Shown piece after piece: positions 5,527 to 54,916 of a stretch of DNA of 64,000 nt. Position numbers and translations under genes: made by a program. Positions within the stretch are counted from its first letter, which is position 1; the number at the start of each line of letters is the position of its first letter. The notes beneath the pieces are model-generated. The model saw only the letters and a program-made list of their open reading frames with translations, had not been told where the DNA came from and searched no databases. The DNA is from Halorubrum trapanicum (GTDB taxonomy: Archaea; Halobacteriota; Halobacteria; Halobacteriales; Haloferacaceae), in assembly GCF_002355655.1 (NCBI RefSeq), contig NZ_AP017569.1, positions 992,001 through 1,056,000 on the forward strand. Reading direction: 5' to 3'.

Positions 5527-5936
5527 TTATAAACGAACACGCCGAGCGGTGGCGCGTGCCACCGAGCGGCCGGAGCGAAGCGGAGGCCGCGAGGAGCACG
5601 CGCGAGGGAGTCGCTGGCGGCGCCAGCCGCCAGCGACGAGGCTGGGGAGGGGTGAGGCGCGGGGCGGTGCTGTGCGGGGAGGGACTCGAAGGGGCAGTCG
5701 CGAGGCGGCCGCAGGCGACGCAAGCACCGCAGGAACGAGCGGAGCGAGTGACGAGGAGCGCAGCGAGCGTGCGGCCGCCTCGCGGCTGGGGCTTCGGAGG
5801 CGGTCGCGTCGATTGTTAGTTTATAAGCAATTACGTACAGCCGAGCGTCCGGGGCTTCGGTGGCGGTCGCGTCGATCGTCGATTTATAAGTAGCCACGTA
5901 CAGCCGAGCGTCCGGGGCTTCGGTGGCGGTCGTCGT
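5527..5936 (+). repeat. Structured repeat copy A (candidate RNA) with two extra 63-bp satellites
   Basis: This is one of seven related intergenic elements. A TTATAAA box (5527-5533) precedes stem I, GCGCGTGC (5552-5559) pairing with GCACGCGC, which encloses a GCGGCC/GGCCGC helix flanked by GA on both sides. Stem II is a perfect GTCGCTGGCGGC/GCCGCCAGCGAC hairpin. Stem III pairs 5695-5713 with 5770-5788 over 19 bp with one U.G. Outside it, CGAAG pairs with CTTCG, where other copies have CAAAG/CTTTG. GGGGCTTCGG recurs at 63-bp spacing (5786, 5849, 5912), with TTTATAAG between units. No gene is seen in the 508 bp between mfnA and the halocyanin. Confidence 0.85.
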
Positions 5937-9892: not shown

Positions 9893-10203
9893 TTTATAAA
9901 TAGATAACAGTGGCTCGGCGGCGACCACCGCCAAAGCCCCAGCCGTGAGACCGCAGTACGCTCGTTGCGCGCTTCAGTCGCTCACTCCGTTCGCTCCTTC
10001 CAGTGCTTACGTCGCCTACTGCGGTCTCACGGCTGCCCCTTTGAGTCCCACCACGCCCGCACAGCAACCGCACCTCACACCTCCCCAGCCTCGTCGGCCT
10101 CCCTCCGCTTCGCTCCGGTCGGCCGACTCCCTCGCGCGTGCTGCTTCGCGGCCGCCGAGGGCGGCCACTCGCAGGCACGCGCCACCGCATCGTTTATTTA
10201 AAA
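9893..10203 (-). repeat. Structured repeat copy B (candidate RNA)
   Basis: A minus-oriented copy lies between convergent genes. Stem III is a perfect 19-bp inverted repeat (9940-9958 with 10017-10035) whose inner half differs completely from copy A, yet pairing is kept. On the minus strand stem I has GCGCGTGC/GCACGCGC around GTGGCCGCC/GGCGGCCGC with one U.G, and tandem GA. Stem II is GTCGGCC/GGCCGAC. TTTATAAATAG marks the right end (9893-9903) and TTTATTTAAA the left end (10193-10202). Confidence 0.85.
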
Positions 10204-24180: not shown

Positions 24181-24530
24181 CGGTGGCGCGTGCCTGCGAG
24201 CGGCCGGAGCGAAGCGGAGGCCGCGAAGCCAGCACCGCGCGAGGGAGTCAGTCGCCGGAGCGAAGCGACGGCGACTGACGAGGCTGGGGAGGCGTGAGGC
24301 TGCTGTGCGGGGCGGTGCGGGGTGGGACTCAAAGGGGCAGTCAGGAGGCAGGCGCAGGCGAAGTAAGCACCGCAGCGAAGGAGCGACAGCGACTGAGCGA
24401 GGAGCGCAACGAGCGTGCGCCTGCCTCCTGGCTGGGGCTTTGCCAGTGTTCGCTGTTGATCCGTAGTCGAGTTCGGACAACCGAGCGACTGGGGCTTTAG
24501 AGGTGTTCGTGTCGATGTTGTCGGTAGGAA
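24181..24530 (+). repeat. Structured repeat copy C (candidate RNA) with one extra 57-bp satellite
   Basis: This copy lies between divergent rpl37ae and thi4. Stem III pairs 24338-24356 with 24416-24434 over 19 bp with one U.G; its sequence (GGAGGCAGGCGCA arm) differs from copies A and B. Stem II is GTCAGTCGCCG/CGGCGACTGAC. Stem I has GCGCGTGC against GCACCGCGC with one bulge and tandem GA. CTGGGGCTTT recurs at 24432 and 24489, 57 nt apart. It is the only copy without TTTATAA boxes at both ends. Confidence 0.82.
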
Positions 24531-24593: not shown

Positions 24594-25529
24594 ATGAAGG
24601 GATTCAACGGCTTCGCGGACGTGAGCGAGACGGACGTGACGAGAGCGATCGGAAACGAGTGGACGGACGGATTCCTCGACTTCACGGACTCCGAGGTCAT
24701 CGTCCTCGGCGGCGGCCCCTCCGGGCTGATGGCCGCGAAGGAGCTGGCCGAGCGCGGCGTGAAGGTGATGATCGTCGAGAAGAACAACTACCTCGGCGGC
24801 GGGTTCTGGCTCGGCGGCTTCCTGATGAACACGGTGACCGTCAGAGATCCCGCACAGGAGATCCTCGACGACCTCGACGTCGACTACGAGCCGGTCGCGG
24901 ACGTGGACGGCCTCTACACCGCGGCCGGGCCCGAGGCCTGCTCCGGGCTGATCAAGGCCGCGTGCGACGCCGGCGCGCGCGTCCAGAACATGACGGAGTT
25001 CACCGACCTCGTCGTCCGCGACGACCACGAGGTCGGCGGCATCGTGATGAACTGGACGCCGGTCCACGCGCTCCCGCGCGAGATCACCTGCGTCGACCCG
25101 ATCGCGGTCGAGTCCGACCTCGTGATCGACGCGACCGGCCACGACGCCGTCGCGATCAGCAAGCTCGACGAGCGCGGCGTCCTCTCCGCGCCCGGCATCG
25201 AGCACGCGAAGGAGCACAACACCGGCATGGACCAGACGGGCGACGGCGAGTACGGCGCCCCCGGCCACGACTCGCCCGGCCACGACTCGATGTGGGTCGG
25301 CGAGAGCGAGGACGCCGTCGTCGAGCACACCGGCGTCGTCCACGACGGCCTGATCGCCTCCGGGATGGCGGTCGCGACCGCGCACGGCCTCCCGCGGATG
25401 GGGCCGACGTTCGGCGCAATGTTAGTGTCGGGGAAGCGCGCCGCACAGACCGCGCTGGACGAGCTTGAGGTCGACGCGCCCGAGGTCGAGCTGTCGGTCG
25501 GGAGCGGGCCCGCGCCCGCAGACGACTGA
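24594..25529 (+). CDS. thi4: Thiazole synthase Thi4 (cysteine, single-turnover type)
   Basis: A 311-residue FAD/NAD-binding enzyme that builds the thiazole phosphate moiety of thiamine from NAD and glycine. The dinucleotide fold is [18 protein letters not shown]. Cys166 in REITCVDP aligns with the residue that donates sulfur in yeast Thi4 and in Haloferax, giving a suicide enzyme. Methanogen homologues have His there and use free sulfide. C-terminal [17 protein letters not shown] is conserved. It is monocistronic and flanked by repeat copies C and D. Confidence 0.94.
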
Positions 25530-25581: not shown

Positions 25582-25914
25582 TTTTATAAGTGGTTACCGA
25601 CGAAGCGACGGCGAACACCTCCAAAGCCCCAGCCGCGAGGACGCCGCACACTCGCTGCGCTCCTCACTCGGTCGCTCACTTCGTTCGCTCCCTCGTTGCG
25701 GTGCTTACGTCGTCTGCGGCGTCCTCGCGACTGCCCCTTTGAGTCCCGCCCCGCGCCGCACAGCGCCGCAGCCTCACGCCTCCCCAGCCTCGCGGCTCAC
25801 GCTTCGCGGCTGCGCCGCTCGCGTTCGCCGCGTCCCTCGCGCGTGCTGTCTCGCGGCCTCCGCTTCGCTCCGGCCGCTCGCAGGCACGCGCCGACCGCGT
25901 GTTGATTTATAAAC
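25582..25914 (-). repeat. Structured repeat copy D (candidate RNA)
   Basis: A minus-oriented copy lies between thi4 and pyk. Stem III pairs 25630-25648 with 25715-25733; read on the minus strand it has one U.G and 18 Watson-Crick pairs, with an inner GGACGCCGCA sequence unique to this copy. Stem I keeps GCGCGTGC/GCACGCGC with tandem GA; stem II closes with CGCGGC/GCCGCG. TTTATAAG (25583-25590) and TTTATAAA (25906-25913) mark the two ends. Confidence 0.85.
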
Positions 25915-36946: not shown

Positions 36947-38281
36947 TTACTGCTCGGCCCCGCACTCCGGGCAGTACGCCGGGTCGTCGAGCCCGCGTTC
37001 GGCGAAGTTCATCCCGCAGTTTCGACACGTCCGGTGGACTCCACACGACGGGCAGAACTCCGACTCGCCGGACGCGGGCAGATCCGCACCACAGCTCTCG
37101 CAGCTCCCGGCCTGCATCTCAGCCGGCTCCACGTCCCCCGTCCGGTCCGATCGGTCCCTCACCTCTATGGCGCCGGAGCGGCCCGTTTCGGTCCGGGCTA
37201 CGGCGTACACGTTCCCGTTATAGTTCCCGAAGAATACCGTCGAGTCCGTCAGCGTCGCCACGGACCAGTCCCCGGCGCTGGCCTCGAAACGCCACTCCTC
37301 GGTCCCGTCGTTCGCGTCCACCGCACACACGATCCCGCCGTGGCCGCCGACGAACAGGCTCGAATCCGCCACGGTCGGTGCGGTTTGGATCTCTCCTCCG
37401 ACAGCGAAGCGCCAGCGTTCGGTCCCGCTGTTCGCGTCCACCGCATACACGGTCCCGTCGCTGCTCGCGACGTACACCGTCGAATCGACCACGACGGGAG
37501 AAAAGCGGAACTCCCCCTCGGTTTCGAACCGCCACTGTTCGATCCCGTCTCTCGCGTCCACCGCGTACACGGTTCCGTCGCCGCCCCCGACGTACGCCGT
37601 CGATCCCGTTACCGCCGATGGAGCGTCCCCGACTCCGACCGCGAAGCGCCACTTCTCGGTCCCGTCGTTCGCGTCTACCGCGTACAGATTCCCGTCGCCG
37701 CTCTTGACGTATATCGTCGACTCCGCGACCACCGGCGGACTCCGGATCAGGTCTCCGGTCTCGAAGCCCCACCGTTCGATCCCGCTGGTCGCGTTCAGGG
37801 CGTACAGGCTGCCGTCGTGGCTTCCGACGTAGACGGTCCCGTCGGCCGTTCTCACCGACCGTTGGACGTACCCGTCGGTCTCGAAACGCCACCGTTCGTC
37901 TCCGGTCGCGGCGTCGAGCGCGTACAGACACCCGTCCGTACGGCCGCCGGTGTACACGGTCGCGTCCGCCACGATCGGCCGTTTTCCACCGTCGAAGCGC
38001 CACCGTTCGGTCCCGTGTTTCGTGTCTATCGCATACAGACCTCCCGACCGGTGCCCGACGTATACCGTTTCGCCCGCTACGACCGGCGTCGTGGCGAAGT
38101 GCCCCTGAGTCTCGAAGCGCCACCGTGCCGACCCGTCGGCCGCGTCCACCGCGTACACGGTCCCGTCGGTGCTCCCGACGTACACCGTTCCGTCCCTCAC
38201 CGTCGGCCAACAGGTGTCCCAGCGGTCGGCCTCGAAGCGCCACCGTTCGGTCCCCGGGGATGACCGTTGCCCGTCGCTCAT
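36947..38281 (-). CDS. PQQ-like beta-propeller protein with C-terminal zinc ribbons
   Basis: A 444-residue protein with about nine repeats of roughly 39 residues, each carrying a variant of VYVGSxDGxVYAVDAxDGxxRWRFE, typical of PQQ/YVTN-like propellers. No signal peptide is seen. The last 60 residues contain two C-x2-C...C-x2-C zinc ribbons (CESCG/CPSCG and CRNCG/CPECG). A cytoplasmic scaffold or sensor is more likely than a quinoprotein dehydrogenase, as no catalytic domain is present. The codons are less GC-extreme than those of its neighbours. The promoter box CCAAAATAAAAC (38303-38314, minus strand TTTTATTTT) gives a near-leaderless start. Confidence 0.88.
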   Translation of the reverse strand: MSDGQRSSPGTERWRFEADRWDTCWPTVRDGTVYVGSTDGTVYAVDAADGSARWRFETQGHFATTPVVAGETVYVGHRSGGLYAIDTKHGTERWRFDGGKRPIVADATVYTGGRTDGCLYALDAATGDERWRFETDGYVQRSVRTADGTVYVGSHDGSLYALNATSGIERWGFETGDLIRSPPVVAESTIYVKSGDGNLYAVDANDGTEKWRFAVGVGDAPSAVTGSTAYVGGGDGTVYAVDARDGIEQWRFETEGEFRFSPVVVDSTVYVASSDGTVYAVDANSGTERWRFAVGGEIQTAPTVADSSLFVGGHGGIVCAVDANDGTEEWRFEASAGDWSVATLTDSTVFFGNYNGNVYAVARTETGRSGAIEVRDRSDRTGDVEPAEMQAGSCESCGADLPASGESEFCPSCGVHRTCRNCGMNFAERGLDDPAYCPECGAEQ

Positions 38282-41524: not shown

Positions 41525-41836
41525 ATTTATAAATAGACGATACAGTGGCGCGCCGGTGAGCGGCCGCCACCGGCGGCCGCGAACCGTCCGCGAGGGAGTC
41601 GCTGGCGCCGGAGCGAAGCGGAGGGGCCAGCGACGAGGCTGGGGAGGTATGAGGTGCGGTGCGGTTGCGGTGCGGGGCGGGACTCAAAGGGGCAGCCGTG
41701 AGGCGGGCGCAGGCGAAGCAAGTACCGCAGGGAGCGAACGGAGTGAGCGACCGAGGAACACAGCGAGCGTGCGCCCGCCTCACGGCTGGGGCTTTGGAAG
41801 TGTTCACCGCCGATCTGCTGTCAGCTATTTATAAGC
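41525..41836 (+). repeat. Structured repeat copy E (candidate RNA)
   Basis: This is the most compact complete copy, between convergent aroE and the CopD-like gene. It is bounded by TTTATAAA (41526-41533) and TTTATAAG (41828-41835). Stem III is a perfect 19-bp pair (41693-41711 with 41770-41788). Stem I carries GCGGCCGCC/GGCGGCCGC with tandem GA and an extra CGGT/ACCG helix not found in other copies. Stem II is GTCGCTGGC/GCCAGCGAC. There is no satellite repeat. Confidence 0.86.
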
Positions 41837-46459: not shown

Positions 46460-46832
46460 TATTTAAAAATGGTGTGCGGTGCGGTGGCGCGTGCCTGCGA
46501 GCGCCCGAAGGGCGCGAGACAGCACGCGCGAGGGAGTCGCGACCGGAGCGAAGCGGAGGGAGCGACGAGGCTGGGGAGGTGTGAGGTGCTGTGCGGTCGC
46601 GGTCGGGCGGGACTCAGAGGGGCAGTCGCGAGGGCGAAGCACGGCGTAGCAAGCACCGCAGCGAATGAGCGAGCAACGCGAGCGACTGAGCGAGGCGCGC
46701 AGCAAGCCGCGCGAGCCCTCGCGGCTGGGGCTTTGGCGGTGTTCTTTGCCGATCCGCCAGCAACTACCTATAAGAGAGCGACTGGGGCTTTGGCGATAAT
46801 CACCGTTGATCTTCAGTCAGCTATTTATAAGC
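46460..46832 (+). repeat. Structured repeat copy F (candidate RNA) with one extra 57-bp satellite
   Basis: This copy lies between pabC and the Rieske gene. ATTTAAAA (46461-46468) precedes it. Stem I keeps GCGCGTGC/GCACGCGC with tandem GA around GCGCCC-GAA-GGGCGC, a sequence change from the GCGGCC seen elsewhere. Stem II is shortened to GTCGC/GCGAC. Stem III is shorter, about 13 bp (46623-46635 with 46715-46727), with one U.G. CTGGGGCTTT recurs at 46725 and 46782, 57 nt apart, and TTTATAAG (46824-46831) ends the element. Confidence 0.83.
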
Positions 46833-53293: not shown

Positions 53294-54112
53294 ATGGGAC
53301 TCACGAAGCGCATCATCCCCTGTATCGACGTCGACCTCGACGACGACGGTGACGCCGCGGTGTACACCGGCGTCAACTTCGAGAACTTGGAGTACACGGG
53401 CGACCCCGTCGAGCTGGCGAAGAAGTACAACGAGGCGGGCGCCGACGAGTTCGTCTTCCTCGACATCACCGCCAGCGCCGACGGCCGCGAGACGATGCTC
53501 GACGTGGTCAACCGGGTCGCCGACGAGTGTTTCATCCCGCTGACGGTCGGCGGCGGCATCCGCACGAAGGCCGACATCAAGGAGACGCTCCGGGCCGGCG
53601 CGGACAAGGTGTCCATCACGACCGGCGCCCTGGAGCGCCCGAAACTCATCGAAGAGGGCGCGGCCGCGTTCGGCAGCCAGTGCATCGTCATCTCGGTCGA
53701 CGCGCGCCGCCGGTACGACGACGAGGGCGAACACTTCTACGAGGACGAGGACGGCGAGACGGTGTGGTTCGAGTGCACGAAGAAGGGCGGCCGCGAGGGC
53801 ACCGGCATCGACGCCGTCTCGTGGGCGACGGAGGCCGAGGAGCGCGGCGCGGGCGAGCTGTTCGTCAACTCCATCGACAAGGACGGGACGAGGGACGGCT
53901 ACGACGTCCCGCTGATGAAGGCGGTGGGCGAGGCCGTCTCGACTCCCCTCATCGCCTCTTCCGGTTGCGGGAGCCCGGAGGACATGTACGAGGTGTTCAC
54001 CGAGGCGAACGCCGACGCCGGGCTCGCGGCCTCCATCTTCCACTTCGGCGACTACTCCATCGAAGAGACGAAGGCGTACCTCGACGAGCGCGGCGTGCCG
54101 GTGCGCCGCTGA
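53294..54112 (+). CDS. hisF: Imidazole glycerol phosphate synthase, cyclase subunit
   Basis: A 272-residue TIM barrel that closes the imidazole ring in histidine synthesis, paired with the amidotransferase HisH (not in the window). The catalytic Asp12 is in IIPCIDVD; the second catalytic Asp is in VISVDARR. Phosphate-binding loops are [22 protein letters not shown] and the AGADKVSI segment. An acidic YEDEDGE insertion in the central loop is halophile-specific. A TTTTAACC box at about 53259 lies 35 nt before the ATG. Confidence 0.96.
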
Positions 54113-54474: not shown

Positions 54475-54903
54475 ATTTATAAAGCGCTACCAGCGACGCA
54501 ACGGTGAACGCCTCCAAAGCCCCGGCCGCTCGCTTATAAATAGTCGCTGGCGGATCGACGGCGAACACCGCCAAAGCCCCAGCCGATTGCTTATAAATCG
54601 CTGACTGCGGATCGACGGTGAACACCTCCAAAGCCCCAGCCGCGAGGCGGGCACAGGCGAACCACGCTCCTCACTCGTTCGCTCCGATCACTCGTTTCGG
54701 TGCTTGCGTCGCCTGAGCCCGCCTCGCGACTGCCCCTTTGAGTCCCGCCCCGCTCAGCAACGCACCTCACGCCTCCCCAGCCTCGCGGTTCGCTCGGGCT
54801 CCCTCCGGTCGCCCGTCGCTCACCGCGTCCCTCGCGCGTGCGACTCGCGCCCTGCGGGCGCTCGTCGGCACGCGCCGACCGCAGCGTGGTCGTTTATAAA
54901 TAG
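54475..54903 (-). repeat. Structured repeat copy G (candidate RNA) with two extra 57-bp satellites
   Basis: A minus-oriented copy. Stem III pairs 54637-54655 with 54714-54732; on the minus strand it has one U.G and one mismatch. Stem I carries GAC/GTC and GCGCCC-GCA-GGGCGC with tandem GA, distinct from other copies. Stem II closes with CGCGGT/ACCGCG. On the plus strand CAAAGC recurs at 54515, 54572 and 54629, exactly 57 bp apart, each 30 nt after a TTATAAA box. TTTATAAA (54893-54900) ends it. Confidence 0.85.
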
Positions 54904-54916
54904 CGTCGCAGTCCGA

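Follow-up and report, generated by a model that had tools for sequence, protein, structure and literature searches.

Candidate tandem promoter modules in the 57-bp units of an interspersed hairpin repeat of Halorubrum

An array of tandem 57-bp units, each with a TATA-like box at a set distance from a conserved sequence block, raises the question of whether such units are promoters and, if so, what they transcribe. The array lies in a stretch of 64,000 nucleotides of the Halorubrum trapanicum genome (positions 992,001 to 1,056,000 of contig NZ_AP017569.1), called here the window. It belongs to one of the copies of a repeated element found in the window, copy G, which has the following organization.

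54475-54905, plus strand: copy G element, three 57-bp units followed by three hairpins
54477..54483, plus strand: TATA-like box TTATAAA of the outermost unit; predicted start at 54507 from the own-genus promoter distance
54515..54523, plus strand: CAAAGCCCC block of the outermost unit; the GGCCG after the block is a copy of the hairpin-1 5' arm
54534..54540, plus strand: TATA-like box TTATAAA of the middle unit; predicted start at 54564
54572..54580, plus strand: CAAAGCCCC block of the middle unit, read from the sequence
54591..54597, plus strand: TATA-like box TTATAAA of the innermost unit; predicted start at 54621
54501..54643, plus strand: 57-bp tandem array found by TRF, 2.5 copies
54629..54740, no strand assigned: hairpin 1, CAAAG-CCCC-AGCCGCGAGG...CCTCGCGACTG-CCCC-TTTG, from copy comparison and folds
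54730..54746, plus strand: most conserved core CTGCCCCTTTGAGTCCC, mostly 95-100% per column
54785..54827, no strand assigned: hairpin 2, between the invariant CTCCCCAGCCTC and TCCCTCGCG
54834..54876, no strand assigned: hairpin 3, 3' end GCACGCGCC, with compensatory pairs
54893..54900, no strand assigned: TTTATAAA past the right end of the element, at a variable gap from hairpin 3

Six further copies in the window carry related units.

5788..5922, minus strand: copy A units, CGAAGCCCC blocks at 63-bp steps, read from the sequence
9894..9940, plus strand: copy B, TTATAAA, 31 nt, CAAAGCCCC
24434..24499, minus strand: copy C, two blocks 57 bp apart, without TATA box
25584..25630, plus strand: copy D, TTATAAG, 31 nt, CAAAGCCCC
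41788..41834, minus strand: copy E, TTATAAA, 31 nt, CAAAGCCCC
46727..46830, minus strand: copy F, two 57-bp units, the outer with TTATAAA and the inner with the mutated TTATAGG, each 31 nt before the block

An earlier note on this DNA had located the CAAAGCCCC block of copy G at 54515, 54572 and 54629 of the plus strand in 57-bp steps, which is borne out by the sequence and the TRF array; the window contains nine exact matches to the block, where chance would give 0.09. The distance from TTATAAA to the block in copy G is constant, as had been claimed, and its value needs correction from 30 to 31 nt by strict count. The same correction holds for copies B, D and E, which share a single gap of 31 nt provided that the copy D box is taken as TTATAAG. 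The second unit reported 57 nt away in copies C and F was found in both, though copy C has no box and the inner box of copy F is mutated. The 63-bp units of copy A are also confirmed; there TTATAAA stands 23 nt ahead of the CGAAGCCCC block in the two inner units. Copies C (minus) and D (plus) lie in inverted orientation around a single gene (24594-25529) in the segment 24180-25915, a layout that recalls a composite transposon.

The element is present in about 170 intergenic copies of 300-420 bp on the main chromosome of the source genome, ordered as one to six tandem units, then hairpin 1, hairpin 2 and hairpin 3. The 57-bp array is the 5' part of this modular interspersed repeat, and each 57-bp unit combines a TATA box with the hairpin-1 5' arm. 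The core CTGCCCCTTTGAGTCCC served as pattern for counting copies; genome-wide counts were 93+83 against 9 for the control with a first pattern and 83+91 against 2 with a second. The main contig (2.84 Mb of a 3.08-Mb genome) holds all 173 placed copies, and the two smaller contigs (245 kb in all) hold none. Among 166 copies, 72 have one block, 63 have two, 24 have three and seven have four to six; the distance between blocks is exactly 57 in 111 cases and the gap from TATA box to block is exactly 31 nt in 173 of 214 pairs. Three unit types are distinguished by a box gap of 31, 28 or 23 nt, constant within each type, and 251 of 304 source-genome units keep the box.

The genome stretches around the copies were the material of the analysis, with genes called by a purpose-made codon-score caller. 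No copy lies within a called gene. Sites between convergent genes are enriched and receive about a third of the copies (56 of 156, with 19 between divergent genes). Copies are slightly more evenly placed than random (CV 0.83 versus 0.99, P 0.0075) and show no replichore strand bias (24% of shuffles are as strong). An Rfam search of the element gave nothing above gathering score, and no account of this repeat family was found in the open literature searched. By analogy, its high copy number, intergenic location and variable tandem modules are those of a BOX-like modular repeat. The BOX elements of Streptococcus pneumoniae (boxA-boxB(n)-boxC; PMC3049150) share with it the variable tandem middle units, predicted stem-loops and excess between convergent genes, while the Halorubrum element is archaeal and GC-rich, and its repeated unit, composed of a TATA box and one hairpin arm, stands at the end.

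The reading that best fits these observations, and on balance a probable one, is that the units act as promoter modules in tandem, from which transcription proceeds into the element, within a portable repeat. The earlier note had drawn tandem promoters from the constant spacing. That argument loses some force with the spacing not being universal (28- and 23-nt types, many boxless Halorubrum copies); it gains from the retention of TTATAA detailed below, from a plus-strand match to promoters and from an analogy with halovirus HF2.

Promoters of leaderless genes of the same genus provide the reference for this match. Their TATA motif starts at -31/-30 (126 hits versus roughly 2-5 per background position) and A is favoured at -12 to -10 and at +1. 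The TTATAA of the unit begins 30 nt ahead of the A in GAACACC, which is the own-genus distance, and this A, 8 nt upstream of CAAAGCCCC, is the predicted start; the box thus lies within the ~26-31 nt upstream of the start that characterize the TTWT-type TATA box of haloarchaeal promoters. The WW expected at -10 is found in the 31-nt type, where A84/T83 at -18/-17 from the block correspond to -10/-9 from the predicted start. A matrix was built from 140 own-genus leaderless promoters, whose training sites were chosen to begin with ATG so that A at +1 is built in. Downstream of the box, 184 of 242 units have a higher score on the plus strand than on the minus strand (means of -1.0 for plus, -4.5 for minus and -6.2 for shuffled sequences). 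As TTTATAAA is palindromic, direction rests on context alone.

Other promoter features agree less well. On the BRE side the plus strand scores hardly better than the minus strand, and the haloarchaeal BRE motif CGAAA (PMC4983044) is not found upstream of the box, where GCTCGC stands; the HF2 IR4 promoter is unaffected by BRE mutation (PMC8707807). The predicted start is preceded by G or A, whereas the own-genus preference at -1 is T. GAACACC is conserved also in boxless copies, which rules it out as a pure initiator. The 23-nt unit type has no promoter-like matrix score. A bacterial sigma-70 scan gave no match, its model being bacterial and not relevant to archaea.

Two known systems are close to such an arrangement. 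In Haloferax, promoter activity has been proven for the 58-bp class I intergenic repeats of halovirus HF2, whose TATA box is at -26 from the mapped start (PMC8707807). They resemble the Halorubrum units as haloarchaeal AT-box repeats of about 58 bp, with TATA promoters of fixed start proven for HF2, and differ in having seven copies, in viral intergenic regions, and no hairpin domain described. Correia repeat enclosed elements (CREE) of Neisseria (PMC2649163, PMC5039591) are likewise dispersed, could form hairpins and are able to provide promoters. Inverted repeats delimit the CREE, whose promoters are at the ends, while the promoter-like boxes of the Halorubrum element lie in direct tandem units and the element showed no terminal inverted repeat. 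BOX, Correia and HF2 repeats are taken as analogues by layout, with no sequence relation claimed.

If the units are promoters, each would be a small one whose plus-strand transcript enters the hairpins, and a tandem array would stack promoters to yield nested transcripts with a common hairpin domain. Unit number would rise and fall via slippage or template switching between the repeated hairpin-1 arms. The element would then behave as a portable promoter-plus-hairpin cassette influencing nearby transcription; between convergent genes its plus-strand transcript would be antisense to the gene on the right. A more far-reaching and only tentative proposal is that each element might be a self-contained gene for a member of one family of structured non-coding RNAs, its promoters stacked and their dosage changing with unit slippage, and that the elements set local transcription at many loci at once. 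They would then form a class of interspersed repeats in archaea that carry promoters, with about 170 copies per chromosome, present genus-wide and restricted to the chromosome. Should the units fire, Halorubrum chromosomes would hold hundreds of evolving intergenic promoter modules, antisense or read-through transcription at many loci would be predictable from sequence, and archaea would have, in this family, an equivalent of the BOX and Correia elements.

The earlier note took the boxes as promoters, perhaps of transcripts running antisense to a structured RNA encoded on the minus strand, and the identity of the RNA strand bears on this view. Purine-rich motifs (GA/GA tandem, GGG/GGG loop) read on the minus strand, whose folds are the more stable: both strands fold better than shuffles, with z of -4.2 for plus and -5.2 for minus. 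Hairpin 1 also has 44 G-U wobbles on the minus strand and 15 on the plus strand. The corresponding counts are unbiased in hairpin 2 (53:54) and hairpin 3 (22:18), so that wobble counting (G-U vs A-C) favours no strand consistently over the three hairpins. Wobble pairs are moreover scarce in hairpin 1 (59 of 2444 cells), which is unusual under RNA-level constraint, and if the right-end box set a start on the minus strand, the predicted position would by reasoning cut into the first arm of hairpin 3. The antisense arrangement is doubtful; the plus-strand product may equally be the sense RNA.

Hairpin 1 has additional features of interest. The pairing of its stem is preserved by compensatory changes across 166 copies, and its 3x3 internal loop CCC/CCC, read GGG/GGG on the minus strand, is conserved in 163-166 of them. 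In the ortholog of copy G in a relative (L300), the 3' arm was made a perfect palindrome, with GGGGC replacing GCCCC, and the interior is inverted; inversions of this kind are also seen at G068:C2:324496, G158:C2:153463 and G158:C2:824634. The L300 correction suggests template switching at the DNA level. Since palindrome correction would erase a mismatched loop, the CCC/CCC loop is probably maintained by selection. An invariant mismatched loop amid near-perfectly complementary arms points to a putative specific binding partner.

Constant spacing could also reflect shared descent alone, one unit having been duplicated and dispersed with the AT-rich box as an inert passenger. The units are plainly homologous and amplify locally: adjacent units are more alike within an element than between elements (0.708 versus 0.628, 0 of 2000 permutations), hence local amplification of the arrays, and 10 neighbouring pairs are identical. 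Slippage between the repeated hairpin-1 5' arms is inferred to change unit number. At the copy G site, after gene 53294-54112 (read as hisF), the elements of relatives differ in unit number and in unit length (51, 54, 57 and 69 bp). At two loci of relatives boxless inner units were amplified (L297, 51 bp; L311, 54 bp) while the outermost unit retains the box.

Boxless copies are indeed numerous in Halorubrum. In relatives 83 of 180 last units have no TATA box; it is common in H. xinjiangense, sp. CSM-61, sp. Atlit-26R and H. lipolyticum, absent in the few copies seen from H. rubrum, H. yunnanense, H. coriense and H. californiense, and several species are mostly without it. The CTCGGCTRTACG motif is present in boxless units and, in the 23-nt type, about 10 nt upstream of the box.

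Sequence retention in the source genome argues against a passive box. Of the innermost units, 58% have an intact TTATAA, versus 24% for the median hexamer, and no hexamer outside the hairpin arm is kept better. In 50 decayed second units (27-44 of 57 positions identical) the in-register TTATAA is kept in 50% versus 12%; it is still present in 35 of them, 13 of those with a broken block, and decayed outer units keep TTATAA as well as the block itself. The GC-rich genome does not favour AT-rich words. The box appears to be under selection in the source genome because TTATAA is retained about four times as often as the median hexamer in decayed outer units, and shared descent alone is considered an unlikely account of its spacing.

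A selected box might instead be recognized, for binding or for recombination, by some factor other than TBP, such as a nucleoid protein, a recombinase or a transposase acting on an end. Its palindromic sequence, the similar box often found past the right end and the presence or absence of the element between species are compatible with such a role. The right-end box, however, lies at a variable distance, and the context downstream of the box, on the element side, matches promoters. One close species lacks the element at sites A, E and F, and site A is empty in two. These empty orthologous sites, whose regions differ elsewhere too, show no clear target-site duplication or terminal inverted repeat, the hallmarks of MITEs and transposon-mobilised repeats. 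TnpB genes are not consistently linked to copies either, and on these points together a non-TBP site is improbable; the 15 TnpB matches, without consistent adjacency to the ~170 copies, also speak against an IS200/IS605 TnpB-associated RNA.

The exact hairpin pattern is found in all 19 Halorubrum genomes sampled and in none of 274 genomes from 86 other genera of the order. All named records with this pattern are Halorubrum except the uncultured archaeon A07HR67. Plasmid records gave only two partial matches, one in Halobaculum. A viral or phage origin was considered; neither IMG/VR nor the phage collection has a match to the element. A covariance model of hairpins 2-3 detects divergent relatives in other genera of the family, some of which also have a hairpin-1 homologue (GAAAGCCCC...GCCCCTTTCAGTCCC); the TATA box is absent from the examples read.

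That the boxes are promoters of neighbouring genes is highly improbable: the copies are all intergenic, but the box is present in 49 of 54 copies whose left gene points away and in 94 of 102 whose left gene points toward the element, and convergent rather than divergent sites are enriched. The direction of the left gene makes no difference to whether the box is present (p=0.77), which rules out promoters of the left neighbour; therefore the boxes belong to the element, in line with the reading as promoter modules.

Some copies carry additional sequences. Secondary insertions are seen between hairpins 1 and 2 (L299, L036, L051) and inside the element (L305, L022, L028, L301); they comprise a ~75-nt segment, GGAAGACG...CTGCTCGC, in several copies and small GC-rich hairpin pairs (CTGCCAGAGGCGCG...), and look like further small dispersed repeats. 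In the right flank of many copies (for example L034, L040, L050, L057, L060, L079), TATTTAAATA often lies ~25-30 nt past the right-end TTTATAA. Elsewhere in the window, internal repeats of ~120 bp at 37268-38198 (minus strand) lie within the called gene 36947-38281 and probably encode protein repeats of the beta-propeller type.
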